Shown here piece by piece: positions 1-14,670 of a DNA stretch of 64,000 bases (the stretch's first letter is position 1; the number at the start of each line of letters is the position of its first letter). The notes under the pieces were generated by a model. That model was not told where the DNA came from, ran no database searches, and worked only from the letters and a program-made list of their open reading frames with translations. The DNA comes from Bacillota bacterium (GTDB taxonomy: Bacteria > Bacillota > UBA994), in assembly GCA_018333655.1 (NCBI GenBank), contig JAGXTJ010000023.1:1-64000 (forward strand), read 5' to 3'. The translations under genes and the position numbers were made by a program.

Positions 1-38
1 CATACTCTGTGTACTCTGTGGTTAATAAACGTACCTTC

Positions 39-80
39 TCTCTTGTCTCTTGCCTCTCGCCTCTTGCCTCTTGCCTCTTG
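39..80. repeat. Heptamer tandem repeat upstream of lgt
   Basis: Six consecutive 7-bp units of the form YCTCTTG (one unit reads CCTCTCG) occupy these positions, followed by a partial unit. The stretch is a strongly pyrimidine-biased strand with no coding sense that I trust. It lies about 50 bp in front of lgt. Slipped-strand expansion is the simplest origin; no function is visible. Confidence 0.8.
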
Positions 81-130
81 TCTTATGTGCGGTAATCGTA
101 TAGCATGAGCATGAAAAAGTAGAGAGTGAG

Positions 131-886
131 ATGATGGGTGCTATGAATCCCATAGCTTTTGAGGTGCTCGGCGTGAGCATTCGGTGGTACGGAATTTTTA
201 TTACGGCGGGGATGCTTCTCGGCATAGCCCTAGCCTTGCGCGAGGTGCGGCGTCAAGGGGAGAATGAGAGCTGGTATCTCGATATGCTCCTTTTAGCCAT
301 TCCAGCTGGGCTACTTGGGGCTAGACTCTACTATGTAATCTTTAACTTTAGCAGCTATGAAACGTGGGCGGCAGCACTAAACTTTCGCGAGGGAGGGCTG
401 GCCATCCACGGCGGGGTTATGGGCGCTGCCCTTGTCGCCTTTCTCTATGTGCGTTACAGAAAGGTTGACTTCTGGCAGTGGGCGGACATCGCCGCCCCTA
501 GCCTCATCTTAGCGCAAGCCATCGGCAGGTGGGGTAATTTCTTTAATGAGGAGGCGTACGGCATTCCCACGCGCTTGCCCTGGGCGATGTACATCGCCAA
601 TGAATACCGGCATCCGGCTTTTCTCTACGAATCGCTGTGGAATATCGCGGTGTTCGTTTTGCTGCTTTGGATGTCGCGCCGGAGAAGCTTTAGAGGACAA
701 ATCGCCACTCTCTACGTCACCTTGTATTCTGTAGGCCGACTGTGGATCGAACAAATTAGGGCAGACAGCCTCATGCTCGGGCCTTTCAAGGTTGCACAAC
801 TAGTGAGCGTGCTTTTGATTGTACTCGGCGCTTACTGCTATGTTCGCCTGAAGCGGCAGCAGTACGGGCAGAGCAAGGCTCTGTAA
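131..886 (+). CDS. lgt: Prolipoprotein diacylglyceryl transferase
   Basis: This 251-residue integral membrane enzyme transfers the diacylglyceryl group from phosphatidylglycerol to the lipobox cysteine of prolipoproteins, the first step of lipoprotein maturation. Several hydrophobic segments are spread along the protein. The Lgt signature (AIGRWGNFFNEEAYG) lies near residues 130-144 and the conserved HGG segment (AIHGGVMGA) near residue 92. Length is slightly short but normal for the family. ATG 131 is chosen because a GAGAGTGAG stretch precedes it; ATG 134 and 143 are alternatives. The signal peptidase that acts next (lspA) lies about 44 kb away in the same window. Confidence 0.95.
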   Translation: MMGAMNPIAFEVLGVSIRWYGIFITAGMLLGIALALREVRRQGENESWYLDMLLLAIPAGLLGARLYYVIFNFSSYETWAAALNFREGGLAIHGGVMGAALVAFLYVRYRKVDFWQWADIAAPSLILAQAIGRWGNFFNEEAYGIPTRLPWAMYIANEYRHPAFLYESLWNIAVFVLLLWMSRRRSFRGQIATLYVTLYSVGRLWIEQIRADSLMLGPFKVAQLVSVLLIVLGAYCYVRLKRQQYGQSKAL

Positions 887-912
887 CAAGTTGCTACCCT
901 CCTTCATACTAT
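885..912 (+). promoter_or_regulatory. Candidate sigma-E/sigma-K type promoter of cotE
   Basis: A CATACTAT box at 905-912 fits the CATAnnnT -10 pattern of mother-cell sigma factors. An AACA at 885-888 sits 16 bp upstream, where sigma-K promoters carry a short AC-containing -35. In B. subtilis cotE is transcribed by sigma-E and sigma-K. A start point near 919 is expected. Consensus match only. Confidence 0.45.
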
Positions 913-930
913 GGTCTAACCGAAGGGGGT
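896..930 (+). promoter_or_regulatory. Leader inverted repeat that can hide the cotE ribosome binding site
   Basis: ACCC (896-899) and CCTTC (901-905) are complementary to GAAGG (922-926) and GGGT (927-930), nine pairs with one bulged base. The 3' arm is the cotE Shine-Dalgarno sequence. The putative -10 box starts at the end of the 5' arm, so only read-through RNA from lgt would contain both arms. Confidence 0.5.
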
Positions 931-939
931 GAATAGTTT

Positions 940-1494
940 ATGTGGAACCGCCAAGATTCTTTAGGGCTTCGGGACATCATTGCTCGTACCACCTGTGCCA
1001 AAGGGCAAAAACGCTTCAAACAGACGTTCTCCATACATACGACTCATGTTCCCGACACGGTTCTTGGCTACCGGATAACCAACCACAGCTTTGTGGCCTT
1101 GCCCGAGCGCAACTACGTGGTCATTACGGGTCAGTACGATGGGCATGTTTGGTATGCGTATGATCGTGGTAATCAGACGTATGTGGACAAGAAGACCATC
1201 TGCTACACCGAACACGTGCCGGTAGTTGACTTAGAAGGCGTGCGTCTCCTTGTAGGAGAGCACGTGCAGGCTGCGGTCGTCAAAGAACCTCGCATTACGG
1301 ATGCCCATTTGCGGCGTGGGGTAGTCGAAGTGACGGCCATGCTGGAGTACTACGCCGAAATAGTCGGCGAAGCGAAGTTGTGGGTTAAGGTCTTCGAGCC
1401 GCCAGATTGTGTGGACGACAAGAAGCACGTTGATTTCACCGAAACCGAAGAGGAAGAATTTGATGACTTCCCTGAGGATGAAGAAGATTTCTAG
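940..1494 (+). CDS. cotE: CotE-type spore coat morphogenetic protein
   Basis: The 184-residue product matches the outer spore coat protein CotE family by pattern: an N-terminal IIARTTCAKGQKRFK segment, PDTVLGYRITNHSF, VWYAYD and AEIVGEAKLWVKV correspond in order and spacing to conserved CotE blocks, and the last 20 residues are almost all Asp/Glu, as in the B. subtilis protein. In Bacillus, CotE surrounds the forespore and anchors the outer coat in the mother cell. An excellent GAAGGGGG ribosome binding site precedes ATG 940. A rho-independent terminator follows, so the gene is probably monocistronic. It directly precedes the YheC/D island, which fits a shared role in the spore coat. Confidence 0.88.
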   Translation: MWNRQDSLGLRDIIARTTCAKGQKRFKQTFSIHTTHVPDTVLGYRITNHSFVALPERNYVVITGQYDGHVWYAYDRGNQTYVDKKTICYTEHVPVVDLEGVRLLVGEHVQAAVVKEPRITDAHLRRGVVEVTAMLEYYAEIVGEAKLWVKVFEPPDCVDDKKHVDFTETEEEEFDDFPEDEEDF

Positions 1495-1516
1495 AGCCAT
1501 CAAGCCATAGTCTGGG

Positions 1517-1542
1517 AGCCGCCTGCGTAGGCGGTTTTTTTT
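1517..1542 (+). terminator. Rho-independent terminator after cotE
   Basis: CCGCC (1519-1523) pairs with GGCGG (1530-1534), extended on both sides by T-A, G-U and A-T pairs, and is followed by a run of eight T. It lies 23 bp past the cotE stop. Confidence 0.88.
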
Positions 1543-1543
1543 G

Positions 1544-1572
1544 CACACTTCATCCGTTCTCCTTCATATGTT
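1544..1572 (+). promoter_or_regulatory. Candidate mother-cell sigma promoter of the YheC/D island
   Basis: CATATGTT at 1565-1572 fits CATAnnnT, and CACA at 1544-1547 lies 17 bp upstream, the arrangement of sigma-K promoters. TCCGTTC (1553-1559), upstream of the -10 box, is complementary to GAACGGA (1591-1597), which includes part of the ribosome binding site of the next gene. Weak consensus evidence; position between a terminator and a spore-coat-like gene supports it. Confidence 0.4.
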
Positions 1573-1605
1573 GGAGTGACCCGCTAGTTGGAACGGAGGT
1601 TGAGA

Positions 1606-2958
1606 GTGCTTGTAAGAGTAGAATTGGCGGCGCTTCTTGAGGACGTAGGCGGTAGTATTATGCGAATGCCTTGGAGTCTGATGAGGGATCTGGGCGTTAG
1701 TGAATCTACACTAGAAGTCTGTTTGGGCCAGTCGATGGCGCAGGCACAGGTGGAAAGACTCTCTGCGGAAGATGATGACAGACGAGTCTATCTTAGCAAA
1801 CCACTCCTAATGTCCCTACATCTTAATGAGTGTATGCGTCTTGGTTTCTGGCGAGAGCAAGGCAGCAATAGGCTGCGCTTAGGCCCCGTGCTAGGTATAC
1901 TGGTTGGACTTCACAGTGACAAAATGCTGGGCTTACGCGAGAAAAATATCAGGGACTTCGCCCGCTTGGCCAGGCAAAGAGGTGCCCTGACCTATGCCTT
2001 CGGAGCAAGCGATATCGACTGGCAGCGGTCTTGCATCACCGGGTGGGTTTTTAATCGCCATAAGCTAGTGAGGATGGAGTGTCCGCTACCCGATGTTGTT
2101 TACGACAAAGTGTCTAGCCGCCGGGTGGAGAATTCGGGCGCCGTAATCGAGATGAAGGATAGGCTGCGCGAGTATCCTCGCCTTAAGTACTACAACCTAG
2201 CCTTCTTCAACAAATGGGACGTGCATTGTCTGCTCGCGGCGCACCCACTGCTTAGTAAGTTCTTGCCGAGTACGGCGGAGCTTACGCCTGAACGGCTACT
2301 AGAGTACCTGGGGCGATACAGAGCGGTTTTTGTTAAGCCTACAGAGGGCTCGCTAGGAAGCGGCATTCTCCGTATTGGCAGGGTTGGTACTCTCTACTCT
2401 TACCGTTTTACGCGCCTAAATCGTCCTGACCTGCAGGGGGTTTGTTACAGCAGTGACAAGGTTGTGCGCTTAATTAAGAAGCTGATGCAGCAAGGGCAGT
2501 ACGTGGTACAAAGAGGACTTCGGCTAGCTCGCGTGAATGGCGGGCCCTTTGACTGCAGGGTGCTGCTGCAAAAAAACCTGCGTAACAAATGGGTTGTAGA
2601 AAGTATAGTTGCGCGGGTTGCTGAGCCTGGCAATATAATTTCGAACATGTCAGATGGAGCGTACTTACTGCATCCGCGGCAGGCGCTACTCTTATCTTTT
2701 GGGCCACAGGGTAACTCGTCGATGCTTATCCGCACTATGAGAAGGATAGCTAGAGCCACAGCTCTAGCTATAGAGAAGGGGATGGGCATGGAATTTGCGG
2801 AGATGGGCGTAGATCTAGCCTTTGACACGAACGGTAGACTGTGGATACTAGAGGCCAATTCGCGGCCCGGTCGCCAAACCAATGACCTTAGAGAGCGACA
2901 TGTCTCGAGTTCAGTTGTAAGGTTTGTCGGATATCTTTGCAGCCGCGGCAGGCTGTAA
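1606..2958 (+). CDS. YheC/YheD family ATP-grasp protein, paralogue 1
   Basis: A 450-residue YheC/D-type ATP-grasp protein. An N-terminal region of about 100 residues leads into the shared LGPVLGILVGL segment, then YAFGASDIDW and DVVYDKV, characteristic of the family. The ATP-grasp core shows FVKPTEGSLGSGI (Lys near residue 244), VVQRGL, FDCRVLLQK and a C-terminal EMGVDLAFDTNG with EANSRPGR (Glu near residue 416) for Mg-ATP binding. YheC and YheD are endospore coat-associated in B. subtilis; their reaction is unknown, but ATP-grasp enzymes usually join a carboxylate to an amine. GTG 1606 is chosen because GGAGG lies 6 bp ahead; TTG 1588 is an alternative. First of four paralogues in the same operon. 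Confidence 0.85.
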   Translation: MLVRVELAALLEDVGGSIMRMPWSLMRDLGVSESTLEVCLGQSMAQAQVERLSAEDDDRRVYLSKPLLMSLHLNECMRLGFWREQGSNRLRLGPVLGILVGLHSDKMLGLREKNIRDFARLARQRGALTYAFGASDIDWQRSCITGWVFNRHKLVRMECPLPDVVYDKVSSRRVENSGAVIEMKDRLREYPRLKYYNLAFFNKWDVHCLLAAHPLLSKFLPSTAELTPERLLEYLGRYRAVFVKPTEGSLGSGILRIGRVGTLYSYRFTRLNRPDLQGVCYSSDKVVRLIKKLMQQGQYVVQRGLRLARVNGGPFDCRVLLQKNLRNKWVVESIVARVAEPGNIISNMSDGAYLLHPRQALLLSFGPQGNSSMLIRTMRRIARATALAIEKGMGMEFAEMGVDLAFDTNGRLWILEANSRPGRQTNDLRERHVSSSVVRFVGYLCSRGRL

Positions 2959-2971
2959 AGGAGGGGTGATT

Positions 2972-4375
2972 ATGTCAGTCGTCATCCTTCATCCTGATCC
3001 TAGTAGGTTGGCCTACTTGCGGCAACTTCTGCCCGAAGTGGATGTGCAGAAGAGCCTGGTCCCTAGTATAGTTCCCAAGCTCGTCATTCGATGGGGGGTC
3101 AGTGACGTAGCTGACCCCACGGGAGCAGTAGTCATTAATAGGGCTCAGTCTATGGCGCTCGTTTCTCGCGCCACGGAAGTTTGGCGGCAGAGTATGTTGA
3201 GGCTAGCTACTGGCACTAGTTTTCGCCGTTACCGGATCTACTTGTTTGATCTCTTGCCTGTCTTAGTTTATAGGCAAGAGATTGGCAGTCGAACCATTGT
3301 AGAAGTTAATCCCGAAGGGTCTAAAGAGATACGTGATGCTATCGCCTTGGCAGTGAGGGCTTTGCATGTACTGGGCCTAGACTTTGCTGTCGTGGAAATT
3401 CATCGCTCTAGTCAAGGGCGTTTGGGAGTGCGTACGGTCGATGTGGCACCTAAGATGACTAAGCGACTGGCAAATGCTCTGGTCTCCCATGTTCGCCAGC
3501 GCTTGCGTGAGGTAGACCTCAGGCAGACCATGGTGGTCTTTCAAAAAGCCAACCCGGCCTACTTGGACAAAGTGGTGAGCATCGGGGCTGACCCTGAGTT
3601 TATGCTGCGCGACTCTACCACCATGACCATGATCATGGCTTCTAAGTTCTTTCCGCGCGAGGGTTCGGTAGGATGTGATTCACTTTTCATAAGAGGTCGT
3701 GAATCAGGCTACCCCTTGGCAGAACTGAGGCCTGCGCCAAGCTACTCTCCCCTGCAGCTCCTAACGAACATTCGTATCGCAATGGAGTTAGCCTTGCGTC
3801 TCGCTCCTTTCCATAATGTAGAGTGGTGTGCTGGGAGTCTGCCCTTTGGCAAGTTCCCCATCGGAGGGCATATTCACTTCGCTGGGGTGGTGATGAGTGG
3901 CCAGCTCTTAAGAGCCCTCGATACCTATCTCTCAGTGCCCTTGCTTATGATTGAGAACATTAGAACAGCTATCGTGCGGAGAGCCAAATTTGGCTACCTC
4001 GGTGATTATAGGTTGAAAGAGCATGGCGGTTTTGAGTACCGTACTCCCGCAAGCTGGCTGGTAGCCCCCGACATTGCCTTGGCAACGCTGTGCTTAGCGA
4101 AAGTGGTCGTCAGTGAGTACCATCTTCTCAAGCGCGATGTCTTCTCCCAAGCAGAAGCACGTACCGCCTTCTCAGCGGGTGACCGCAAGTACTTTGCAGG
4201 TGTCTTTAGCCAGTTATGGCAGGACCTTAAAGCGACATCCACATACAGACTCTATGAGAGTGAATTGCAGAATCTTGAAGATAAGATCAGTGTGGGGTGG
4301 ACTTGGTCCGAAAGAGCGGATATACGGCGGGCATGGGGCCTGCGTGTGCCGCGGACGCGATTCTTCAGGAATTAA
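2972..4375 (+). CDS. PhiEco32-type COOH-NH2 ligase (putative amidoligase)
   Basis: A 467-residue protein with a poorly conserved N-terminal half and a C-terminal domain of the glutamine-synthetase-like COOH-NH2 ligase family first noticed in phage phiEco32. Visible family marks are GADPEFML near residue 206, YPLAELRPAPS near 248, FPIGGHIHFAG near 294-304 and HGGFEYRTPASWL near 350. Such enzymes are predicted to form amide bonds with ATP. A strong AAAGGAGG site directly precedes ATG 2972, 13 bp after the preceding gene; I reject the in-frame start at 2924 because it overlaps that gene and lacks a site. Amidoligase and YheC/D genes are known neighbours in Bacillota, so a joint pathway is likely, the substrate unknown. 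Confidence 0.8.
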   Translation: MSVVILHPDPSRLAYLRQLLPEVDVQKSLVPSIVPKLVIRWGVSDVADPTGAVVINRAQSMALVSRATEVWRQSMLRLATGTSFRRYRIYLFDLLPVLVYRQEIGSRTIVEVNPEGSKEIRDAIALAVRALHVLGLDFAVVEIHRSSQGRLGVRTVDVAPKMTKRLANALVSHVRQRLREVDLRQTMVVFQKANPAYLDKVVSIGADPEFMLRDSTTMTMIMASKFFPREGSVGCDSLFIRGRESGYPLAELRPAPSYSPLQLLTNIRIAMELALRLAPFHNVEWCAGSLPFGKFPIGGHIHFAGVVMSGQLLRALDTYLSVPLLMIENIRTAIVRRAKFGYLGDYRLKEHGGFEYRTPASWLVAPDIALATLCLAKVVVSEYHLLKRDVFSQAEARTAFSAGDRKYFAGVFSQLWQDLKATSTYRLYESELQNLEDKISVGWTWSERADIRRAWGLRVPRTRFFRN

Positions 4376-4393
4376 GAGAGAGAGGTGAGTAGG

Positions 4394-5512
4394 GTGCGTT
4401 CCGTCGCAGTAGGAATAATGTCCTTTCGCAACCGTACAGGGGGGATGCCTTTTGCCGAGACAGGGTACTTTCGCCAATCACTCCAGGCCGCAAAGAAGCT
4501 GTCAATGCGGGCGTTTGTCTTTTGTCCCCTCGATATCGACTGGCGTAGCCGCAGTATCTACGGCTACGTATATGACGACGCTGCCGGAGCCTGGCAGGCT
4601 AAACACTTTCCTTTTCCTGACGTGGTGTACGACCGACTATTCCCGCCGCGCGGCAGGCTGGCGAACCTTTTGTTTGCCGCCGCTAAGCGCTTACGAACCC
4701 AAGGCCAGGTACAGATGTTCGGCCGAGCCTTCCGAGGCAAGTGGGAGGTGTACAGCGCGCTGGCTAAACATGATGATGTAAAAGAACATCTTCCTGAGAC
4801 AAGGCCCCTTCACAAACTTGCTGATTTAGACCTGCTTCTACGTAAACATGGCTATGTGTTCGTCAAGCCTGACATGGGTAGTCAAGGCGCGGGCGTGGTG
4901 TCCATTAGAGCCACAACCAATGGTTACCGTTGTCGCGGCAGAAACCACCGCAACGTTCCATACGCAGTAAACACACATTCCCTAGCCCATGTTCTGGCGG
5001 TAGCTAAGTCCGCCAGTATGCGCCGGCGGCTATTGGTGCAACAAGGGCTTGAGCTTAGTTTCTTACAGGGACGTACCTTTGATGTGAGGGCAGTTGTGCA
5101 AAAGGACCACGAAGGAAAGTGGCAGTTGACGGGCGCGGCGGTGAGAATCGGCCGCCCGGGTAGCGTGACCTCAAACTTGCATGGTGGTGGTCATGCTGCG
5201 CGCCCGGAGGCGCTGCTTAAACGTGCGTTTCCCGCAAGTTACAGCGAGATTATGGAAACATTAGTCCGGCTTGCCCTGAGAATACCTGCCGTCATTGACC
5301 AAGAGCTAGGCCGATACGGCGAGCTAGGACTAGACTTTGGGGTGGACAATAACGGCAAAATTTGGCTTATTGAGGCTAATAGTAAGCCTGGCCGCACCGT
5401 CTTTTTACGCACAGGGGACTATGCCTTACGAAGAACTAGCATCGCGCGGCCCATGCAGTACTCGCGGTATCTCGCTCTGCAAAAACGAAGTGGTGGTGAA
5501 GAAGTTGTTTGA
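4394..5512 (+). CDS. YheC/YheD family ATP-grasp protein, paralogue 2 (short form)
   Basis: A 372-residue YheC/D protein that lacks the roughly 80-residue N-terminal extension of its three relatives and starts almost directly with the VGIMSFRNR segment. The family core is intact: FCPLDIDWRSRS, DVVYDRL, FVKPDMGSQGAGV, LLVQQGLEL, FDVRAVVQK, ELGLDFGVDNNG and EANSKPGR. The size resembles B. subtilis YheC, whereas paralogues 1, 3 and 4 resemble the longer YheD. GTG 4394 follows AGGTGAG at a good distance; GTG 4385 is possible. The end overlaps paralogue 3 by 17 bp, which indicates translational coupling. Confidence 0.82.
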   Translation: MRSVAVGIMSFRNRTGGMPFAETGYFRQSLQAAKKLSMRAFVFCPLDIDWRSRSIYGYVYDDAAGAWQAKHFPFPDVVYDRLFPPRGRLANLLFAAAKRLRTQGQVQMFGRAFRGKWEVYSALAKHDDVKEHLPETRPLHKLADLDLLLRKHGYVFVKPDMGSQGAGVVSIRATTNGYRCRGRNHRNVPYAVNTHSLAHVLAVAKSASMRRRLLVQQGLELSFLQGRTFDVRAVVQKDHEGKWQLTGAAVRIGRPGSVTSNLHGGGHAARPEALLKRAFPASYSEIMETLVRLALRIPAVIDQELGRYGELGLDFGVDNNGKIWLIEANSKPGRTVFLRTGDYALRRTSIARPMQYSRYLALQKRSGGEEVV

Positions 5513-6842
5513 GCTATCTCACAGTGGCAGTGTGCTGTATATAACTAGTGACGAGGCCAGTAAATGGAGTTTGGTGCATGGTCAAGAAGTCTCTGTCAGG
5601 TTTGGCTGTTGTGTGGCGCCTGCCGCCCTACATGTAGAGGAACATAGGCAACGGCAGCGCATGAGTGTGTTGCTTAGGGCACGACTTCATTTTCCCTCTG
5701 CCTACAGGGGTAATTTGCTCTACCATGCCGAGCGGAAGGAAGTGCAAATTGGGCCTCTGATTGGTTTTTTGACGATGCCGCAGGGAGGTAAGTCTGGAGC
5801 GTGGGATAGTAACCTCTACAGTGGCTTGCAGGCGGCCGCTCGCCATGTAGATGCTTTCACCTATGCCTTTAGCCCTAGAGATGTAGACTGGTCGTCGCGC
5901 TTGGTGCGTGGCCATTACAGGGGTAGGGGCGCTGTTAAGCAGCTTATCGTTCCCCTGGCAGATGTGATCTATAATCGGGTGTCAAATCGCAGCCAAGAGC
6001 GAACCGCCCTTTATCGACACTTTTTGAAACGCGTGGCGGACAATAAGCATCCTTACTTGTTCAACCCCCACTTCTTTAATAAATGGCAAGTGCATCGTTG
6101 GCTTTCTTCTGATGGAGAGGTGCGTCAATATCTTCCCGAGACGCGTTTGTTAGGTGGAGTGCGCGACATGGAGCGGATAGTGTCTCGCCATGGGCATGCC
6201 TATGTCAAACCTTTGGGCGGAAGCCAAGGCAAAGGCATTGTCCGCGTCGCAGGTCTTAAGGAAGGCGGTTATGCCGTTCATTATCGCACTGGTGCCAGCA
6301 ATGTGCTGCATTATCACGCTAATTTTGCCGAGGCAGCGTCAGAGGTTCTGGCTGCTAAAGAGCGGCGAGGCTACCTCGTTCAGCAGGGCTTGACTTTAGC
6401 CAAGTATCGCGGCAGCACCTTTGATGTCAGGGTAACCATGCACAAGCAGGGTAGTGGAGAATGGGAGGTAGTGGGGCCTGCGGCAAAAGTTGCAGTAACA
6501 GGGGCAGTCACTACGCATGTACATAATGGCGGTAGGGTCTACCCGCTAAAGAAAGTGTTGCGCGAGGTTTTTCCGCAGCATGAAGCAGATATCTTTCTTC
6601 GCCTAGTCGTGGCCAGCAAGAAAATTGCCGTGGCGCTAGAGCGCGCCTGCAAACTGCGCTTAGGGGAATTAGGCCTAGACCTCGGTATAACACCAAGGGG
6701 GGAGGTTTATCTCTTTGAGGTGAACGCGCGGCCTGGGCGCATGGTGTTTGCTCCCGGCTGGGCCAGAAAAGATGGTAGGCACTCCTTGCGCTGTCTCACT
6801 GCGTTTGCGCACTACGCAGCCGGCTTTGGCGAAGTAGATTAG
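5496..6842 (+). CDS. YheC/YheD family ATP-grasp protein, paralogue 3
   Basis: A 448-residue long-form YheC/D protein. After an N-terminal domain of about 85 residues come IGPLIGFLTM, YAFSPRDVDW and DVIYNRVSNRS, then the ATP-grasp marks YVKPLGGSQGKGI, YLVQQGLTLAKYRG, FDVRVTMHK, a TTHVHNGG loop and ELGLDLGITPRG with FEVNARPGR. The start lies inside the end of paralogue 2; three consecutive GTG codons (5490, 5493, 5496) and TTG 5505 are available and no strong ribosome binding site decides between them. The 17-bp overlap and 3-bp gap to the next gene show one transcription unit. Confidence 0.82.
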   Translation: MKKLFELSHSGSVLYITSDEASKWSLVHGQEVSVRFGCCVAPAALHVEEHRQRQRMSVLLRARLHFPSAYRGNLLYHAERKEVQIGPLIGFLTMPQGGKSGAWDSNLYSGLQAAARHVDAFTYAFSPRDVDWSSRLVRGHYRGRGAVKQLIVPLADVIYNRVSNRSQERTALYRHFLKRVADNKHPYLFNPHFFNKWQVHRWLSSDGEVRQYLPETRLLGGVRDMERIVSRHGHAYVKPLGGSQGKGIVRVAGLKEGGYAVHYRTGASNVLHYHANFAEAASEVLAAKERRGYLVQQGLTLAKYRGSTFDVRVTMHKQGSGEWEVVGPAAKVAVTGAVTTHVHNGGRVYPLKKVLREVFPQHEADIFLRLVVASKKIAVALERACKLRLGELGLDLGITPRGEVYLFEVNARPGRMVFAPGWARKDGRHSLRCLTAFAHYAAGFGEVD

Positions 6843-6845
6843 GGG

Positions 6846-8180
6846 GTGCAGAAATTGCTACTAGTGAAATTGTCGGCACATGCGCCACAACAGCAAGGGG
6901 ATAGCAGGACTGTCAAAGGCGGAATGAGTGTTCTGCGCGGAACGCTGTGCACTAAGTTAGGTCACTCTGTACTACACCTGAGCCCTGAGGCTATCAAGGG
7001 GCTGGGGCTAGAGATGGGGCGAGAGGTGGCTTTGTGGCGTGATGGAAACGGTTACAGATTAGGGCCTTACATTGGCATTATGACTGTGAGGCGCCCGCAG
7101 GCGCAGCCGGGGTTTGCTGGAATCGGTGGCAGGCGAGATAATTTCGTGGGGTTATCGCGTATGGGGCAGAAAATGGGTGCTGTTGTCTTTGTTTTTGCGG
7201 CCGAGGATGTAGATTATCAGGCCCAGAGAATTACGGGCTTCTGCCTAGAGGGTAGCGGACAATGGACTCGCGTGAGTCTGCCTTGGCCTGACGTCATCTA
7301 CAACCGGGTTCCTGATCGCCAATCGGAAGAAAAGGCAGCGGTAGCGCTACTTAAGAAGAGATTTGTCGCAGCAGGGGGGGCTCTCTTCAATTCCGGGTTT
7401 TTTCATAAGTGGCAGATCACTGAGGCCCTCATTCGTCAAGGGGCAGTAAAGCACTACCTCCCTGAAACGAAATTGCTAGAGACAGCCCGCGATTTTCTTA
7501 GCATGTTGGCAGAACATAGTCTGCTCTACCTTAAGCCTGTCAGCAGCTTTGCCGGACAGGGAATCCTCCAAGTTAGCCGCTTGCCTCACCGGTTGCTTTT
7601 GCGCTACCGCGCGGGAGATGAGGTGAAAGAGGAGCACTATGGGAATGTAGAAAGCCTCTTAAGAGCAGTAAAGCAGCATAAAATACCTGGCCAGTACCTA
7701 GTCCAGCAGGGCTTGGCGCTAGCGAAGTATCGTGGGGCAATATTTGACGCACGTGCCCTGGTACAAAAGACGAGTGAGGGCGACTGGGATCTAACTGGTG
7801 TCGGCATACGGGTAGCGAGCCGCGGGGGGATAACAACTCATGTGCCCTGTGGTGGCCATATTGCCTCCTTAGAAAATGTGCTGCAAGAAGTCTATGGCGA
7901 GACAGAAGTGAAGTCGAGTGGTGTCTGGCTGCGGGTTAAAAATCTCGCGCTAGCGATTGCACCGGCCATAGAAAAAAGCCTTGGGCAGACTCTAGGGGAG
8001 ATGTCCATGGATATCGGCATCACCTCTGCCGGGCACTGCTACTTCTTAGAAGCAAATGCCAAGCCTATGAAGTTCGATGAACCCCACATTTGGCGCCGTT
8101 CTTTGCGTAGACGCGTCGAGTACTGCAGGTTCCTGGCGGGATGGCGGGGCGACGAGGTACACAGCTATGCGGGTAACTAA
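6846..8180 (+). CDS. YheC/YheD family ATP-grasp protein, paralogue 4
   Basis: A 444-residue long-form YheC/D protein with LGPYIGIMTV, FVFAAEDVDY, DVIYNRVPDRQ, LYLKPVSSFAGQGI, YLVQQGLALAKYRG, FDARALVQK, TTHVPCGGH and EMSMDIGITSAG. The C-terminal metal/ATP motif reads FLEANAKPMKF instead of the EANS(K/R)PGR of its relatives, and the phosphate-binding loop is SSFAGQG instead of G(S/G)xGxG, so this copy is the most diverged in the active site. It shares the QQGLxLAKYRG block with paralogue 3, suggesting a recent common ancestor. GTG 6846 is 3 bp after the preceding stop; ATG 6924 with AAGGCGG ahead is an alternative. Confidence 0.8.
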   Translation: MQKLLLVKLSAHAPQQQGDSRTVKGGMSVLRGTLCTKLGHSVLHLSPEAIKGLGLEMGREVALWRDGNGYRLGPYIGIMTVRRPQAQPGFAGIGGRRDNFVGLSRMGQKMGAVVFVFAAEDVDYQAQRITGFCLEGSGQWTRVSLPWPDVIYNRVPDRQSEEKAAVALLKKRFVAAGGALFNSGFFHKWQITEALIRQGAVKHYLPETKLLETARDFLSMLAEHSLLYLKPVSSFAGQGILQVSRLPHRLLLRYRAGDEVKEEHYGNVESLLRAVKQHKIPGQYLVQQGLALAKYRGAIFDARALVQKTSEGDWDLTGVGIRVASRGGITTHVPCGGHIASLENVLQEVYGETEVKSSGVWLRVKNLALAIAPAIEKSLGQTLGEMSMDIGITSAGHCYFLEANAKPMKFDEPHIWRRSLRRRVEYCRFLAGWRGDEVHSYAGN

Positions 8181-8613
8181 GGTATCTTCTGCGCGCTGGG
8201 AGAGGATAAAAACGCGGGTGATAGAGTTTGTGGCCACCCACAAAGACCGACACATCACCAAAGAGGCGAGCAGCAAGCTCAAGAATCTGAGCGGACTAGA
8301 CCTTGAACAACCGGGCACCTTGGTCTTACTGGTAACAGCGCATAAACGCTTGCTGGGAGTGTTGGCTTGTCAGACCTATGGCGAGGTTTTTTCTATAGCC
8401 GTGGTGAGGAGGGGCGAGAGAAGCCGAGGCGTCGGAAAGCTGCTGCTCGGTAATGCCCTAAACACCTTAGGCAAGATGCATGTAGAAATTGCTTCAGATA
8501 ATGTCCCGAGCATAAAACTGGCCTTCGCCTGCGGGCTACTTGGCTACGGGGCCTTTGTCAGAGATAACGGGCAGGTGGTGCTGCGCTTAAAGACTTTTGA
8601 GGAGCTCGCCTAA
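8167..8613 (+). CDS. GNAT-like acyltransferase
   Basis: A 148-residue protein with an N-terminal helical part and a C-terminal GNAT-like fold. The RSRGVGKLLL segment near residues 85-95 matches the acyl-CoA pyrophosphate-binding motif (R/Q-x-x-G-x-G/A), followed by VEIASDNVPSIKLAFACGLLGYG, a typical last GNAT helix-strand pair. GNAT proteins transfer an acyl group from acyl-CoA to an amine. ATG 8167 overlaps the end of paralogue 4 by 14 bp, so it belongs to the YheC/D operon; a terminator directly follows. GNAT genes have been noted next to predicted amidoligases in other Bacillota. Substrate unknown. Confidence 0.72.
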   Translation: MRVTKVSSARWERIKTRVIEFVATHKDRHITKEASSKLKNLSGLDLEQPGTLVLLVTAHKRLLGVLACQTYGEVFSIAVVRRGERSRGVGKLLLGNALNTLGKMHVEIASDNVPSIKLAFACGLLGYGAFVRDNGQVVLRLKTFEELA

Positions 8614-8630
8614 AACGGGCTCCTTTTGTT
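8601..8630 (+). terminator. Rho-independent terminator at the end of the YheC/D operon
   Basis: GGAGCTCG (8601-8608) pairs with CGGGCTCC (8616-8623), eight pairs with one G-U, a 7-base loop that contains the GNAT stop codon, and a TTTTGTT tail. Confidence 0.75.
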
Positions 8631-8698
8631 AGCAGTAATAGGTTGGCGGTATGGGTGAATAGAGTATACAGGAGCATGAGGTAGGGAGAGGACTTTTG

Positions 8699-9814
8699 AT
8701 GAGTATTCTCGTGGCGCACCTAGCTGAGATCATGGCCTGTTACGGTTTGCACGGCAACCCCGTGACTGTTGACAATCAGTTGTGTATCAGCACCAAGGAT
8801 GGTCTATTGGCGGTGCACATTCACTCTGGCGACAAGGAGGAAGTAGCATGGGCTGGAAGATGCCTCTCTGAACTCCGCCATCGGGGAGTAAGGGGCCTTG
8901 GCGCTATCCAGAGGACTTTAAGCGAGCACTTTTCTGTAGAAATTAACAAGGTAAAGCTCTACCTGACTGAGTATACCCCTGGAGGGGCATGTGACAGCAG
9001 TAGTATCTTTGAGGTGAGGGCCATTGGACGCCTGCTAGGACAAGTACACAGGGCTTCAGAGGAAATACTCTACTTGTCTGCCTGCCCGGCCATTCGCGTG
9101 GCACCCCTTTGGCGGGATGCCGCACGTGAGCGGGTGGCCTACTGGGGGCTAGCGGCACATCGCTATCGCAAGGGGGAGCGTGGCGAGGCCGTCAGAGAAC
9201 TGCTGCGGCAGGCCGAAGAAGCTCTCAGTCGCGCTGACGAACTGGCCTTGCGGCACGACGGGGTGAGAGTTATTTCTTTTGCGGGGCTTTCTTACGGTCA
9301 ATTTGTCTACATGAATGCGGAACATCAAGTGTATCTTAATCAGTCTCATGCCTGTAATACGGACTGGGCCTATACCTCTGTCGGGAGCTTGCTCCTAGAT
9401 GGGAGCTTCGCCCATGACAGGGGCTTGCACTTCTTGGCGGCCTACCTCGCGGTTCACCCCTTGAGTGAAGTCGAATGGCAGCTCCTCTTAGCCTACCTAC
9501 TCTACCCGCACGAATGGGCCACAGCCCTAGATGAGTTGGTGAGAGGGCGTCCCGCTCTTAATAGCCGGGAAGCTATAGTGGATTTGCGGCGGAAGAACGA
9601 ATGGATGGACTGGCTCAATGAAGAAGGTAGCGCCTTACGGAGGGGAGTGCAGCAAAATCCACCTGCACTACTATCTTTGCCACCACTAGAGAGTGTGGAA
9701 AAGAGTGCCATTGTGCCTGCGCTAGAAGTTCCCCTAGAGGTAGAAAAGCCAGTTTCTCGTCCCGAAGGCAAAATCACATGGAAAAGATTTCCGAGTAGTC
9801 CGCGACGCTCATAG
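8699..9814 (+). CDS. CotS-like spore coat protein, degenerate kinase fold (tentative)
   Basis: I do not recognise this 371-residue protein with certainty. Its layout resembles the CotS/YsxE/YutH group of spore coat proteins with an aminoglycoside-phosphotransferase fold: an N-lobe-like segment with DGLLAVHIHS and LSELRHRGVRG, a hinge-like VKLYLTEYTPGG, then AIGRLLGQVHRAS. Where such kinases carry HxDxxxxN and a metal-binding DFD, this protein has SFAGLSYGQFVYMN and YLNQSHACN, so it would be catalytically dead. The last 50 residues are Pro- and charge-rich and probably disordered. ATG 8699 follows GTAGGGAGAGG; it lies behind the terminator of the YheC/D operon and probably has its own promoter. 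Confidence 0.5.
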   Translation: MSILVAHLAEIMACYGLHGNPVTVDNQLCISTKDGLLAVHIHSGDKEEVAWAGRCLSELRHRGVRGLGAIQRTLSEHFSVEINKVKLYLTEYTPGGACDSSSIFEVRAIGRLLGQVHRASEEILYLSACPAIRVAPLWRDAARERVAYWGLAAHRYRKGERGEAVRELLRQAEEALSRADELALRHDGVRVISFAGLSYGQFVYMNAEHQVYLNQSHACNTDWAYTSVGSLLLDGSFAHDRGLHFLAAYLAVHPLSEVEWQLLLAYLLYPHEWATALDELVRGRPALNSREAIVDLRRKNEWMDWLNEEGSALRRGVQQNPPALLSLPPLESVEKSAIVPALEVPLEVEKPVSRPEGKITWKRFPSSPRRS

Positions 9815-9855
9815 TCATTCGCAGAGCAGGGCAGGGTAGTATAGAGGTGAGCTAA

Positions 9856-10545
9856 GTGCTTATGCAAATTGCCCTGCGCACTGTTTTTTTCTATGTCGCT
9901 GTAGTCATAGTGCTACGCATTATGGGGAAGCGCGAACTAGGCCATTTGTCGCCCTTTGATTTAGTGGTGTCTATTATGATTGCCGAGTTAGCGGCGCTTC
10001 CCATCGAGAATACGGACAAGCCCCTACTAGAGGGAGTCATTCCGCTTGTGGTGCTGCTTCTACTAGAGGTGCTTCTTTCCTACGCTGCTCTAAAGTCGGA
10101 AACAGTTCGCGGCATCGTCAACGGCAAGCCAAGCATGGTCATTATTAAGGGTAAAATTATGGAGAGAGAAATGCGCAAGCTGCGCTACAACCTCAATGAC
10201 TTGCTCGTGGGTCTGCGCAGTCAGGGGATCGTGGACCTGGCGGAGGTGGATTATGCCATTCTTGAGCCTTCAGGCACTTTGAGCGTCATACCCATAGTAG
10301 ATAAAAGACCCGTGACCCCGGCTGACCTCAAGCTAGAACTCCCTCGCGAAGAGTTGCCCTTGGTGCTCATTACAGACGGTAGAATTCACTGGGTGAGTGT
10401 AAAGAAGGGTGGCTATGACGAGGGGTCTTTTCGCGCTTTACTTCACTCCCAGGGTATTCACTCAGAACAAGCAGTACTCTTTGCCTACCTTGATGGGCGG
10501 GGTAACTTGCAAATTCAGCTCAAGGACGCACATAGACAATCATAG
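9856..10545 (+). CDS. YetF/DUF421 family membrane protein
   Basis: A 229-residue protein of the DUF421 (YetF/YrbG/YdfR) family. Three hydrophobic segments fill roughly residues 1-80, including the family mark RIMGKRELGHLSPFDLVVSI; the cytoplasmic part then shows VNGKPSMVIIKGKI and LNDLLVGLRSQGI, followed by a second alpha/beta domain from about residue 130. Several family members are induced in the forespore or under stress in Bacillus, but their activity is unknown. GTG 9856 lies 6 bp after AGGTGA. It stands alone between two gaps. Confidence 0.88.
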   Translation: MLMQIALRTVFFYVAVVIVLRIMGKRELGHLSPFDLVVSIMIAELAALPIENTDKPLLEGVIPLVVLLLLEVLLSYAALKSETVRGIVNGKPSMVIIKGKIMEREMRKLRYNLNDLLVGLRSQGIVDLAEVDYAILEPSGTLSVIPIVDKRPVTPADLKLELPREELPLVLITDGRIHWVSVKKGGYDEGSFRALLHSQGIHSEQAVLFAYLDGRGNLQIQLKDAHRQS

Positions 10546-10711
10546 GCGTAGCGAAACAATGCGTTCATGACGGGGAAATAAGGCAAAAACTTAATATTTT
10601 CTACCTGCGAGTCGTAATATCTTGCTGCTACAATGAACCGATTGGGTTACTGAATGTAGAGCACCAAGGCGGTGCATACTACAATGCACTCTGTTATTGG
10701 GAGGTAGATTG
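10546..10711 (+). promoter_or_regulatory. Leader region with two mutually exclusive hairpins
   Basis: This 166-bp gap precedes the activase module. GCACC (10661-10665) pairs with GGTGC (10671-10675), and GTGCAT (10672-10677) pairs with ATGCAC (10684-10689). The two stems share bases 10672-10675 and cannot form together. AGAG (10658-10661) and CTCT (10689-10692) could close an outer stem. The GGGAGG ribosome binding site lies just downstream at 10699-10704. No convincing promoter was found. Confidence 0.4.
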
Positions 10712-11725
10712 ATGATCGTTATTGGCATACCGCGGGCCTTGCTCTACTATATTTACTTTCCTCTATGGCGGCGTTTTTTCTCTGAGCTTGGGGTTAAGGT
10801 GGTTCTTTCTGCTCCCACCAGTGAGGAATTTCTGACCGCAGGTGCACGAGCGGTGGTCGACGAAGTTTGTGCCCCAGTGAAGATCGCCATGGGGCATATC
10901 TTATCGCTAGCTCCCCATGTCGACTATGTTCTCGTTCCGCGTTTCGTAAGCGTAGAGCCGCGTGCCTACATTTGTCCGAAATTAATGGGCCTGCCAGATA
11001 TGATTCGCCATAACGGACTAAAGATGCCCCCTGTACTCGCCCCGGATATTGACTTGAGTCGTGGCTACCTAGGGTTACTGCGGGTTCTTACGGAAGTAAG
11101 CCGTGTTCTTGGCAAGGGGTGGTGGCCGAGTGCCCGCGCTTTCTACCAGGCACTCTCTGAGGTGAAGAGGACTAGGCGCAAGCTTATGACAGGGCTGACG
11201 CCTGAGGAGGCCTTTCATGGCACAATGCGGCGACGTAAACCAGGGCGGCGCATGCGTATCGCCGTTCTCGGTCATCCATACAGCATTTATGACCCCCTGC
11301 TGAGCATGAATATTATCGACAGATTGCGCTCCCACGGCATTGATGTAGTCACAGCAGAGATGCTGCCAGAAGAACACATTGCCCTTGGCCTGCGAAGACT
11401 CAAGAAGAAGCTGTTCTGGACGCAGAGCAAAATGGTGCTAGGGGCAGGGCTCTACTTTCTGCATGACGACGACGATGTAGAAGGGATTATCGTCCTAAGC
11501 TCTTTTGGTTGTGGCTTAGAGTCATTAGTAGCCGACATGTTAGAGCGCTTCGCCCGCCGTAAAGAGTTTCCGTTGCTGCACCTTACCGTAGATGAACATA
11601 GTGCTGAAGCTGGTTTAGTTACGCGGCTAGAGGCTTTCGTTGAAACAGTGCGAGGGAGGATAAGGCATGCGCGTTACCTTTCCCCACATGGGGACGCTGA
11701 GTTTAGCAATGCGAGCGCTCCTTGA
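10712..11725 (+). CDS. Acyl-CoA dehydratase activase-related protein (DUF2229 type), first copy
   Basis: A 337-residue protein of the DUF2229/HgdB-like family that accompanies (R)-2-hydroxyacyl-CoA dehydratase activators. It begins IGIPRALLYYIYFPLWRRFF, typical of these proteins, keeps cysteines in VVDEVCAPVKIAMGH and YICPKLMGLPD that could hold an iron-sulfur cluster, and ends with FGCGLESL followed by LTVDEHSAEAGLVTRLEAFVE, a motif repeated in the next gene. Function is unproven; it may be a protein activase or reductase component. GGGAGG at 10699-10704 supports ATG 10712. The end overlaps the next gene by 59 bp. Confidence 0.75.
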   Translation: MIVIGIPRALLYYIYFPLWRRFFSELGVKVVLSAPTSEEFLTAGARAVVDEVCAPVKIAMGHILSLAPHVDYVLVPRFVSVEPRAYICPKLMGLPDMIRHNGLKMPPVLAPDIDLSRGYLGLLRVLTEVSRVLGKGWWPSARAFYQALSEVKRTRRKLMTGLTPEEAFHGTMRRRKPGRRMRIAVLGHPYSIYDPLLSMNIIDRLRSHGIDVVTAEMLPEEHIALGLRRLKKKLFWTQSKMVLGAGLYFLHDDDDVEGIIVLSSFGCGLESLVADMLERFARRKEFPLLHLTVDEHSAEAGLVTRLEAFVETVRGRIRHARYLSPHGDAEFSNASAP

Positions 11726-12773
11726 AAACTTGGGACTTCAGGTGGTGATGCCTCCCCCTATTACTAGCCGTACTTTGGCACTGGGGGCGAAGTATTCGCC
11801 AGAGTGTGTTTGTCTGCCTTTCAAAGTGAACGTCGGGAATTACATAGAGGCCATAGAGTTAGGGGCGGACACCGTGGTCATGGCGGGCGGCATTGGACCA
11901 TGTCGCTTTGGCTACTATGCAGAGTTACAGCGCGAAATATTGGCGGACCTTGGCCTCTCGGCCAACATGATCGTACTCGAGCCGCCCCAAGGCATGGTGA
12001 CGGAGCTTTGGCGTAAAATCTCAAGCTTAACCCGGGGCCATTCATTTATGTCCGTGGCGCAAGTCTTTTACTTTGCTTGGCGTCTTGCCAAGGGGCTCGA
12101 CGGCATCGAAAAGACTCTTCACCAGGTGCGCGCCCTCGAGAAAACTAGGGGTTCTTGCGACATAATCTGGAACGAGGCACAGAACAGCATTGGCCAAACG
12201 CGAACCCTACGAGGACTATGGGCTGCCGAAAGACTGATCAAAGAGCGCATCGCGGCCTTGCCAAAAAAAACCTGTGTGCACCCTCTGCGCGTAGGGCTGG
12301 TCGGCGAAATCTACATGCTGCTAGAGCCGAAGGTCAACCTAGGTCTCGCCGAGCGCCTCGGCTACCTAGGGGTAGAGGTTCACCGTAGTATGTCTGTGAG
12401 TGACTGGGTGACACAGCACCTGGTGCCAGATCCTAGAGCGCAAGTTTTGGTCCGAAAAATTAGGCAGGCGGCAAAGCCGTACTTGCGCGGCCATGTGGGG
12501 GGACATGGCCTTGAGACGATAGGCCATAGTGTTCTCTACGCCGAAGAAGGAATGGATGGCATCATTCAAGTCTTGCCTCTGACCTGCATGCCTGAAATCG
12601 TAGCGCAGAGTATCTTGCCTACGATTAGTGAGAAATATGGCATCCCTATCCTCACCCTCGTGTTGGATGAGCATGCCGGCGAGGGAGGCTTGCAGACACG
12701 ACTGGAAGCATTTGTCGATATGTTGCGCGCACGCCAAAGACGAGGGAGGGCGATAACTAGTCATGGGAACTAA
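11667..12773 (+). CDS. Acyl-CoA dehydratase activase-related protein (DUF2229 type), second copy
   Basis: A 368-residue relative of the preceding gene. It opens with VTFPHMGTLSLAMRALLENLG, has cysteines in SPECVCLPFKVNVGNY and in GGIGPCRFGYYAE, and ends with VLPLTCMPEIVAQS and LVLDEHAGEGGLQTRLEAFVDML, the same closing motif as its neighbour. The two proteins thus look like a pair that forms a cysteine-rich complex, perhaps with an Fe-S cluster, which the ATPase encoded next would activate. The ATG lies inside the preceding gene, with GGAGGGATAAGG ahead of it. The end overlaps the next gene by 11 bp. Confidence 0.75.
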   Translation: MRVTFPHMGTLSLAMRALLENLGLQVVMPPPITSRTLALGAKYSPECVCLPFKVNVGNYIEAIELGADTVVMAGGIGPCRFGYYAELQREILADLGLSANMIVLEPPQGMVTELWRKISSLTRGHSFMSVAQVFYFAWRLAKGLDGIEKTLHQVRALEKTRGSCDIIWNEAQNSIGQTRTLRGLWAAERLIKERIAALPKKTCVHPLRVGLVGEIYMLLEPKVNLGLAERLGYLGVEVHRSMSVSDWVTQHLVPDPRAQVLVRKIRQAAKPYLRGHVGGHGLETIGHSVLYAEEGMDGIIQVLPLTCMPEIVAQSILPTISEKYGIPILTLVLDEHAGEGGLQTRLEAFVDMLRARQRRGRAITSHGN

Positions 12774-13734
12774 TGTGTACCTAGGGGTTGATGTCGGGTC
12801 GGTCAGCACCAAGCTAGTAGCTATCGATAGCAAGGGTCAAGTTCTCGGGCACTGCTACTTAGAGACTCAGGGGCAACCGATCGCCGCCATTCAGAAAGGC
12901 CTCGATTTAATTAAACATGCACTCACTGGAAGTAACACAGTGGCGGGAGTAGCGACTACCGGTAGCGGCAGAGTAATTGCCGCGGCCCTGCTAGGTGCAG
13001 ATGTAGTAAAAAACGAGATTACGGCACATGCCACAGCTACTTTGCGGGTGCTACCCGAGGCTCGCGCCATTATTGAAATTGGTGGGCAAGATTCTAAAAT
13101 GATACTGATTAATCATGGAGTGGTCACCGACTTTGCGATGAACACGGTATGTGCTGCTGGGACCGGGTCTTTCTTGGACCGACAAGCGCATCGTCTCGGC
13201 TTGCCTGTAGGGTCCTTGGGAGAACTTGCCTTGCAAGCCAAAACACCCACCCGCATTGCCGGTAGGTGTGCCGTTTTTGCTGAGTCCGACATGATCCACA
13301 AACAGCAAGCCGGTCACAACCTCGCTGACATTGTGGCCGGGCTGTGTGAAGCCTTAGTACGTAATTACCTGAACAATGTGGGCAAGGGAAAAACAGTAAA
13401 GGGGCCGGTCTCTTTCCAGGGCGGCGTGGCGGCTAATATCGGTATCCGCAAGGCCTTGGAGGCGGCCCTAGAGCTGGCCGTGGTCGTCCCCGAACACTAC
13501 AAAGTAATGGGAGCCTTAGGAGCGGCTTACTTGGCAGTGGAGACGATTGGCAAGTCTGCTTTTCGCGGGTTCGGTGTGGCAGGAGCCCATTGTCTCGCCT
13601 CTTCAGAACCCTGTCTCGGTTGCGGCAATGCCTGCGAGGTGGTGCGGTTTGCTATGGAAGGCCGAGTTTTGGCACACTGGGGAGACCGTTGTGGCAAGTA
13701 CAGTCAAAAACAACTTTCGTCAGCTGGGTCTTGA
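12763..13734 (+). CDS. BadF/BadG/HgdC-type ATPase (acyl-CoA dehydratase activase)
   Basis: A 323-residue ASKHA-fold ATPase related to the 2-hydroxyglutaryl-CoA dehydratase activator HgdC. It shows GVDVGSVSTKLVAID at the N terminus, EIGGQDSK near residue 107, NTVCAAGTGSFLD (first cluster cysteine) near 130, and GRCAVFAESDMIHKQQAG (second cluster cysteine) near 169; the homodimer binds one [4Fe-4S] cluster between the subunits and drives ATP-dependent electron transfer. A C-terminal CLGCGNAC tail of about 50 residues is extra and might hold another metal site. No dehydratase gene is nearby, so the electron acceptor is unknown. The stop directly abuts the stop of the convergent HAD gene. Confidence 0.85.
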   Translation: MGTNVYLGVDVGSVSTKLVAIDSKGQVLGHCYLETQGQPIAAIQKGLDLIKHALTGSNTVAGVATTGSGRVIAAALLGADVVKNEITAHATATLRVLPEARAIIEIGGQDSKMILINHGVVTDFAMNTVCAAGTGSFLDRQAHRLGLPVGSLGELALQAKTPTRIAGRCAVFAESDMIHKQQAGHNLADIVAGLCEALVRNYLNNVGKGKTVKGPVSFQGGVAANIGIRKALEAALELAVVVPEHYKVMGALGAAYLAVETIGKSAFRGFGVAGAHCLASSEPCLGCGNACEVVRFAMEGRVLAHWGDRCGKYSQKQLSSAGS

Positions 13735-14373
13735 TTAAATTGGGGCAATGACACTCTTGAGCTCGGCGAAGGTTGCGATAGTGAAGTCGGCACGAGCAAG
13801 TTCCGTGGTCTGGCCAGTGCCAAACAAGCACCCGACAGTAAAGAGGGAGTTAGCCTGACCTGCCAGCATGTCGTGAAAGCGGTCACCCACCATGTAGCCT
13901 CCCGTAATGTGGTGACGTTCTTTGACGAGAGCTACTAAGTCGACTTTTGTCAGGCCATGGAACTGTCCCGCGCAGTAGCGGGCATCAAAAAGTTCAACTA
14001 AGCCTAAATGGTGAGTTACTGACTCAAGGTAGTTGGGGGCGCAGTTTGAACAGATATATGTTTTGTAGCCTAAGCTCCGCACATGGGAAAGTGTCTCGCG
14101 TACACCTGGGAAGGGCTGGGCTTGCGACTCTACTAGCAGGCGCAGCTCTGCTTTTTCCATCAATTGATCGGCATGCTCTGCGTGATGACGATGTTCTGAG
14201 GGCAGGAGCATTTCCCAGATTTCGTGTAGTGGGTAGCCGAGGGTATTAGCGAGGACCGCATCGCTCGGCACGGTAAGCGCAAGCTCGATAAGCACCTCGC
14301 GAAAAGCCGGAATGGCAACTTGTCGTGCATCCCATAGTGTTCCATCAAGATCAAAAATAACAGCTTTAACCAA
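13735..14373 (-). CDS. HAD-superfamily hydrolase (phosphatase-like)
   Basis: A 212-residue HAD subfamily IA protein. VIFDLDGTLWD provides the nucleophile Asp8 and acid Asp10; a helical cap follows; YICSNCAP is motif II; a Lys in LTKVDLVA and GDRFHDMLA form motifs III and IV. Such enzymes dephosphorylate small molecules (phosphoglycolate, nucleotides, sugar phosphates); the substrate cannot be read from sequence. The minus-strand TTG at 14373 is preceded by GAAGGGG at 8 bp; an ATG at 14381 is in another frame. It is convergent with the activase gene and divergent from the SASP gene. Confidence 0.85.
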   Translation of the reverse strand: MVKAVIFDLDGTLWDARQVAIPAFREVLIELALTVPSDAVLANTLGYPLHEIWEMLLPSEHRHHAEHADQLMEKAELRLLVESQAQPFPGVRETLSHVRSLGYKTYICSNCAPNYLESVTHHLGLVELFDARYCAGQFHGLTKVDLVALVKERHHITGGYMVGDRFHDMLAGQANSLFTVGCLFGTGQTTELARADFTIATFAELKSVIAPI

Positions 14374-14487
14374 TTTATCATCCCCTTCTCACCTATATTT
14401 TGCATCGAGAATGCTTACATAGCAATACGCTCTTTGTTCAAAACTATAAGTGCCGGCAATTGTTTGCGGCGAAGGGGTGGTAGTGCA

Positions 14488-14664
14488 TTGGCACGTGGAC
14501 GCAAAGTAATGTCTGAACAGCTGAAGCTGAAGTTGGCAGAGGAGCTTGGCTTTGCCGATACTGTGCGCTCCCGCGGATGGGGTGCGGTGTCGACCAAGGA
14601 GACAGGCGATATGGTAAGACTGGCTATCGCCAAGGCGGAGCAACAGATGAAAGGTTTTCGTTAG
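14488..14664 (+). CDS. Small acid-soluble spore protein, alpha/beta type
   Basis: A 58-residue DNA-binding spore core protein. The sequence begins MARGRKVMSEQLKLKLAEEL, then GWGAVSTKETGDMVRLAIAKAEQQ, matching the clostridial alpha/beta SASP pattern with the Gly-rich turn and the amphipathic C-terminal helix. These proteins coat spore DNA in A-like form, protect it from UV and are degraded by GPR on germination. TTG 14488 is chosen because AAGGGGTGG ends 7 bp before it and the resulting N terminus matches relatives. A sigma-G promoter is expected in the 114-bp gap upstream, but I could not find a convincing one. Confidence 0.85.
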   Translation: MARGRKVMSEQLKLKLAEELGFADTVRSRGWGAVSTKETGDMVRLAIAKAEQQMKGFR

Positions 14665-14670
14665 ACTGGA

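Follow-up and report, generated by a model that had tools for sequence, protein, structure and literature searches.

Described relatives of the operon

The closest described relatives of the genes reported here are yheC and yheD of Bacillus subtilis, members of the sigma-E regulon whose expression in the mother cell is raised by SpoIIID (PMC517825), and YheD has been localized to the spore, where it forms a shell (PMC7911427). Operonic linkage of ATP-grasp ligases with COOH-NH2 ligase or GNAT domains has been seen in many instances, with the enzymes often acting in succession, and this linkage is a feature of the amidoligase operons predicted by Iyer, Abhiman, Burroughs and Aravind in 2009 (as cited in PMC4431377). 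The operon described here has the same linkage. It lies in a stretch of 64,000 nucleotides (hereafter the window; positions 1 to 64,000 of contig JAGXTJ010000023.1, assembly GCA_018333655.1) from a member of the Bacillota lineage UBA994, spans positions 1606-8613 of the + strand directly after cotE, and consists of four YheC/D ATP-grasp genes (YheCD_A to YheCD_D), a COOH-NH2 ligase gene (LIG) and a GNAT-like gene. The 2009 work and Pfam reportedly predict spore-wall or capsule roles.

The window proteins and the B. subtilis pair all belong to PF14398 above the curated cut-off, and both sets include short and long forms: YheCD_B is without the N-terminal domain of about 80 residues present in A, C and D. 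The window differs in having four paralogues together with a COOH-NH2 ligase and a GNAT-like gene in one operon after cotE, and in having a promoter that looks sigma-K-like rather than sigma-E-like. PF14395, the family of LIG, was not found in B. subtilis, the control genome of our ligase search. YheD coats B. subtilis spores, yet no function has been assigned to the YheC/D proteins; a literature check found no PF14398 member with a described reaction, and an open-access literature search, outside which the 2009 amidoligase paper lay, found no paper assigning a function to the sporulation set.

We propose that the mother cell uses this operon late in sporulation to form amide (or isopeptide) bonds at the spore coat at the expense of ATP. 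Leaving aside the order of the steps, we give this reading a probability of roughly 0.7; that the products are mother-cell coat ligases is by itself somewhat more probable. The presence of YheC/D on spores and the linkage of the three gene classes were already known. What is new, as far as we have checked, is the evidence from genomes that lost sporulation, the recognition of four ancient orthologue groups and the finding that a skin-like element interrupts the ligase gene. The locus connects the YheC/D family with CotE, with ligases of a second type and, judging from the promoter, with late mother-cell control.

Gene calls, promoter and terminators

Gene boundaries were set from start and stop codons, ribosome-binding sites and junctions. 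The successive gaps between the six genes are 13, 18, -20, 3 and -14 bases, and YheCD_A has a GTG start codon with GGAGG six bases 5' of it. The four YheC/D proteins matched PF14398 with E values of 8e-64 to 3e-78 (216-263 bits, cut-off 26.8) and are exactly the copies that the whole 2.2-Mb genome contains, while LIG scored 318 bits against PF14395 (COOH-NH2 ligase type 2; cut-off 25). These calls and matches confirm a first-pass annotation of this DNA, which had described six overlapping or nearly contiguous genes of these classes as an operon. Its start for the block, 1544, falls in the promoter, and the first gene begins at 1606.

The terminator that the annotation had placed at the end of the operon was found (z-score -3.4; Table 1), as was a candidate for the sigma-K promoter that it had suspected directly 3' of cotE. 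The motif AC-N16/18-CATATGTTG is kept in six related intergenic stretches between cotE and YheCD_A, and the form AC-N16-18-CATA-NNN-T[AG] occurred between cotE and the next operon gene at 19 of 47 loci, which are phylogenetically non-independent, compared with 0.43 in dinucleotide-preserving shuffles. Within the 64 kb, counting both strands, a sigma-K-like motif occurs 5' of cotE, 5' of the operon and about five more times. Since the -10 boxes of sigma E and sigma K are similar, late mother-cell type is the safe reading of the promoter, and this is the type we predict from the motif. Its spacing fits that reported for B. subtilis, where a gap of 14-16 separates the 5-nt -35 and 10-nt -10 elements (PMC517825). 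A sigma-70 scan and a simple terminator scan of the DNA gave no more matches than shuffles; the promoter and terminators were judged on other grounds.

Association with sporulation and CotE

In a survey sample of 399 Bacillota genomes, LIG was found in 52. All 52 have YheC/D proteins (37 of 37 by search, the remainder from gene maps) and 51 have SpoIVA, the exception being a genome with 61% completeness; for the sample as a whole the SpoIVA figure is 336 of 399 (p 0.0017). Carriers of the ligase are thus not mainly non-spore-formers, a distribution that the first-pass annotation had named as telling against its proposal. The co-occurrence with cotE that it had suggested looking for was also seen, CotE being present in 30 of the 52 LIG genomes and in 21 of the 347 others (odds ratio 21, p 6.5e-18); at 44 of 66 named loci a cotE gene lies near LIG on the same strand.

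Three genomes of the window's own family are natural knock-outs, in which the operon was lost along with sporulation. Two of them (G001 and G006) are without Spo0A, SpoIVA, YheC/D, the ligase and CotE, and the third (G005) has a truncated Spo0A and a remnant of SpoIVA and is without YheC/D, the ligase and CotE. All three are draft genomes, 90-95% complete, and it is unlikely that assembly loss alone accounts for the joint absence of these loci.

Recurrent neighbours of the loci were mostly housekeeping genes (mutS, ychF, ylbF/ymcA) and gave no clue to the substrate. At about 22 loci, mainly in Syntrophomonadaceae, a gene resembling AspA/M99-type carboxypeptidases stands beside LIG, mostly on the opposite strand (for example at L055 10347-11291, -). 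The acidic tail of CotE was considered as a ligation target and found to be unsupported, as tails are equally acidic in several genomes that have no ligase.

Gene order and the four YheC/D lineages

The ATP-grasp, COOH-NH2 ligase and GNAT classes stand together in one conserved operon in the window and in relatives as distant as Thermaerobacter. The order cotE-A-LIG-B-C-D-GNAT-CotS is kept in the window's own family and in family f3 of the same class; in family f2 of that class the block A-LIG-B-C-D-GNAT is identical and cotE is more than 20 kb away, and Thermaerobacter (L075) has the order cotE-LIG-A-B-C-D-GNAT. One further operon, in G003 (L023 / L037), looks partly decayed, with YheCD_A in two frames and YheCD_C apparently missing on a short contig.

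In a tree of 60 sequences, groups A, B, C and D, each including its Thermaerobacter copy, were each split off by one branch (supports 98/94, 100/99, 96/92 and 99/97, respectively), and in Kyrpidia and Tumebacillus the two genes 3' of LIG group with C and then D, in that order. The four genes are thus old separate enzymes and not recent copies: by their sequences they form orthologue groups that correspond 1:1 across classes, with the order kept as far as Thermaerobacter. Tandem YheC/D arrays are common in Bacillota. Five-gene arrays apart from the cotE-ligase pair were seen at C1 2150258-2156309 of G035 and at similar places in G078, G227, G338 and G377.

Conserved residues, predicted folds and fusions

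An alignment of 52 YheC/D proteins, including the four from the window, has the invariant residues K197, K239, G246, Q297, D311, R313, W324, G346, D396, E409 and N411 (numbered as in YheCD_C). These should include the phosphate-binding lysine and the metal ligands of ATP-grasp enzymes. The retention of all catalytic residues, together with the age of the orthologue groups, makes non-redundant roles for the four proteins likely; the first-pass annotation had described them as diverged paralogues. A structural model of YheCD_C (predicted local distance difference test score, pLDDT, 94) had RimK and LysX/ArgX as its best fold matches, with Ddl also among the matches. RimK and LysX/ArgX are known to add amino acids to a protein carboxylate; YheCD_C is about 15% identical to them and has an extra N-terminal domain.

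LIG has 28 invariant residues over 32 sequences, the motifs GADPE, AELRP, GGHIHF and GFEYR are invariant, and its model (pLDDT 93.8) matched ATP-grasp ligases, glutamine synthetase (GS) and YbdK. The catalytic domain has the fold of the YbdK and GS-type carboxylate-amine ligases and keeps the GGHIHF and Arg motifs; the protein differs from them in an additional N-terminal domain resembling a degenerate ATP-grasp. Profile comparison gave this resemblance a probability of only 20-65%, depending on the rows used, and Foldseek matched the domain to PsnB and RimK. Taking the two together, the first ~200 residues probably comprise a pre-ATP-grasp domain and the C-terminal half of an ATP-grasp domain without its lid, an assignment that we regard as moderately supported. 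A sequence search of solved structures gave only weak matches to glutathione synthetase and RimK and no solved relative of LIG, and viral contigs contained only distant ligases (25-36% identity). In two genomes LIG and a YheC/D protein are fused into single proteins of 924 aa (G101, L159 1064-3838, -) and 983 aa (G361, L160 2485-5436, +), which argues that the two work jointly.

A skin-like element within the ligase gene

LIG is interrupted in two genomes from a single genus of the class, G008 (3.8 Mb, assembled as one contig) and G010. The break falls inside the active-site motif KGFP-IGGH and is due to elements of 5.35 kb and 5.21 kb, respectively. Each element contains an epimerase-like gene and a gene for a 504-residue large serine recombinase with Resolvase, Recombinase and Zn-ribbon domains, and is flanked by direct repeats of 10 bp in G008 and 14 bp in G010. 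When the flanks were joined in silico the frame was restored and complete ligases of 464/465 residues resulted, so that excision is predicted to restore the ligase. Identity between the two genomes is 63% and 72% for the ligase halves, 62% for the recombinase and 74% for the epimerase; synonymous divergence (dS) is saturated or high and nonsynonymous divergence (dN) is 0.16-0.29. Both ligase halves and the recombinase have therefore long been under selection, purifying in the case of the halves, while the gene was interrupted, a pattern predicted for a developmentally excised element and not for an inactivating insertion.

Developmentally excised elements include skin in sigK, SP-beta in spsM and gin in gerE (PMC5595907). 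The element in LIG shares with the skin type a serine recombinase, short direct repeats, in-frame restoration and a host gene tied to sporulation; it differs in being only about 5.2 kb, in having no phage structural genes that we could see and in its amidoligase host gene. Viral contigs held no relatives of its recombinase, phage recombinases being at most ~30% identical. The element is absent from the window's own genome. A gene that only the terminal mother cell requires can tolerate such insertions, and the element is thus independent support for a mother-cell role of LIG. With it, an amidoligase would join the few genes that are reassembled by DNA rearrangement in the mother cell.

Proposed function and alternative explanations

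From the gene content and order, catalytic residues, folds, promoter conservation, co-occurrence, loss and element, all of which were computed, we infer as follows what the enzymes do, on which acceptor, with what product and in which order. LIG would activate a carboxylate in its GS-like domain, with the degenerate ATP-grasp domain probably holding the acceptor. The four YheC/D proteins may be active ligases of the RimK/LysX type with non-redundant roles, joining amino acids or similar amines to an acceptor associated with the coat, either a protein or a small molecule, so that five enzymes in all would carry out carboxylate-amine ligation, and the GNAT protein may acylate or cap the product. 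Sequential assembly is plausible given four non-redundant ligases and the fusions, and parallel modification of different targets fits equally; we put ordered stepwise assembly at slightly worse than even odds. It is guesswork that the ligation runs in four ordered steps, that the product is a non-ribosomal peptide and that the GNAT protein caps it. It is tempting to speculate that many Bacillota build a hitherto undescribed amide-linked coat oligomer on which one GS-type ligase and four (sometimes five) ATP-grasp ligases act in order, and that one lineage switches the pathway on by excising the skin-like element from the ligase gene in the terminal mother cell, but we consider this full picture rather doubtful.

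Several observations weigh against the proposal of a coat-ligase operon of the late mother cell. CotE was undetected in 22 of the 52 LIG genomes, and in G008 and G010 cotE is more than 20 kb from LIG. Paenibacillus-type genomes have LIG beside cotE and a five-gene tandem YheC/D array far from that pair; physical linkage is therefore not obligatory, and a single fixed pathway is not required. The shared ancestry of the promoter regions and the likeness of the sigma-E and sigma-K boxes, both mentioned above, count here as well. The GNAT-like gene is the least certain assignment in the operon (Pfam GNAT E value 1e-3, 18-19 bits, below the cut-offs of 20.7 and 23.6), yet its synteny is kept.

Among other explanations, the YheC/D proteins might be mainly structural proteins of the coat or its basement layer that retain the ATP-grasp fold, with the ligase only modifying or cross-linking them. 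B. subtilis YheD makes rings and then a shell around the spore and interacts strongly with itself (PMC7911427), as this would suggest, but the catalytic Lys, Asp, Glu and Asn are invariant in all 52 aligned sequences, a conservation that purely structural proteins would not maintain, and we consider this explanation unlikely. Action on the cortex or another peptidoglycan layer, where the enzymes would add or branch stem-peptide amino acids, seems marginally less probable again: D-Ala-D-Ala ligases are among the best fold matches and the carboxypeptidase-like gene near LIG would fit, whereas the operon is linked with cotE and a CotS-like gene and not with cortex genes, the promoter is of late mother-cell type, and YheD localizes with the coat basement layer.

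The presence of the graspetide ligases PsnB, AMdnB and CdnC-type among the fold matches raises the thought of a cluster for a ribosomally synthesized and post-translationally modified peptide, whose precursor the ATP-grasp enzymes would cyclise before it is secreted or deposited. No linked precursor gene could be accommodated, since the genes abut or overlap and the flanking gaps (111 and 85 bases) hold the terminators and promoter, and RimK, LysX and Ddl fit YheC/D better than graspetide ligases do; such a cluster is very improbable. We give least credence of all to a secondary-metabolite or stress operon that merely adjoins cotE. The more distant neighbour genes are indeed unrelated, but SpoIVA in 51 of 52 carriers, the loss of the operon alongside spo genes within its genus and family, the sigma-K-type promoter and the skin-like element all speak for a special tie to sporulation.

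The first-pass annotation had offered the locus as an unknown system for amide ligation at the spore surface. A pathway of this kind is well supported by the co-occurrence with SpoIVA and CotE, the loss with sporulation, the sigma-K-type promoter and the skin-like element; the system is less unknown than the annotation had it, as such operons are already in the literature and tandem arrays are common. If the proposal of a coat-ligase operon is true, spore coats bear an amide-linked modification of non-ribosomal origin, with possible effects on resistance, adhesion or germination, and cultured carriers such as Tumebacillus or Paenibacillus would allow a direct test.

Features and neighbouring genes

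Table 1. Coordinates of the operon, adjoining features and the elements in two relatives (window positions unless a locus is named)
Feature	Position	Strand	Basis
Sigma-K/E-type promoter-like motif 5' of cotE (AC-N-CATACTATG)	886..913	+	One of ~7 such sites in 64 kb, both strands
cotE, spore coat morphogenetic protein with acidic tail	940..1494	+	PF10628 E 4.4e-30; adjoins ligase block across Bacillota
cotE terminator	1516..1542	+	9-pair stem then U8; -13.8 kcal/mol; z -2.8
Sigma-K-type promoter motif of the operon (AC-N16/18-CATATGTTG)	1545..1573	+	Kept in orthologous intergenic regions; 19/47 loci
YheCD_A, YheC/D ATP-grasp ligase	1606..2958	+	PF14398 8.1e-64; own orthologue group
LIG, GS-fold COOH-NH2 ligase, probable degenerate ATP-grasp N-terminal domain	2972..4375	+	PF14395 3.7e-95; invariant residues; model and folds
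YheCD_B, YheC/D ATP-grasp ligase	4394..5512	+	PF14398 3.3e-78; own orthologue group
YheCD_C, YheC/D ATP-grasp ligase	5493..6842	+	PF14398 1.8e-69; model matches RimK, LysX/ArgX; own orthologue group
YheCD_D, YheC/D ATP-grasp ligase	6846..8180	+	PF14398 4.7e-69; own orthologue group
GNAT-like acetyltransferase	8167..8613	+	Pfam GNAT 1e-3, below cut-off; position common to class-mates and Thermaerobacter
Operon terminator	8599..8625	+	10-pair stem then U4; -15.7 kcal/mol; z -3.4
CotS-like spore coat kinase-fold protein, downstream neighbour	8699..9814	+	TIGR02906 2e-10, below curated cut-off; position common to families f1 and f3
Skin-like element, G008	L026 6651-12007	reverse complement	Serine recombinase, direct repeats
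Skin-like element, G010	L028 4477-9700		Serine recombinase, direct repeats

An Rfam search of positions 1-16000 gave no match. Directly 3' of the CotS-like gene, at 9856-10545, lies a gene that by eye encodes a DUF421/YetF-like membrane protein, and at 10697-13734 there are three genes that, again by eye, resemble a 2-hydroxyacyl-CoA dehydratase-like pair and an ASKHA activase.

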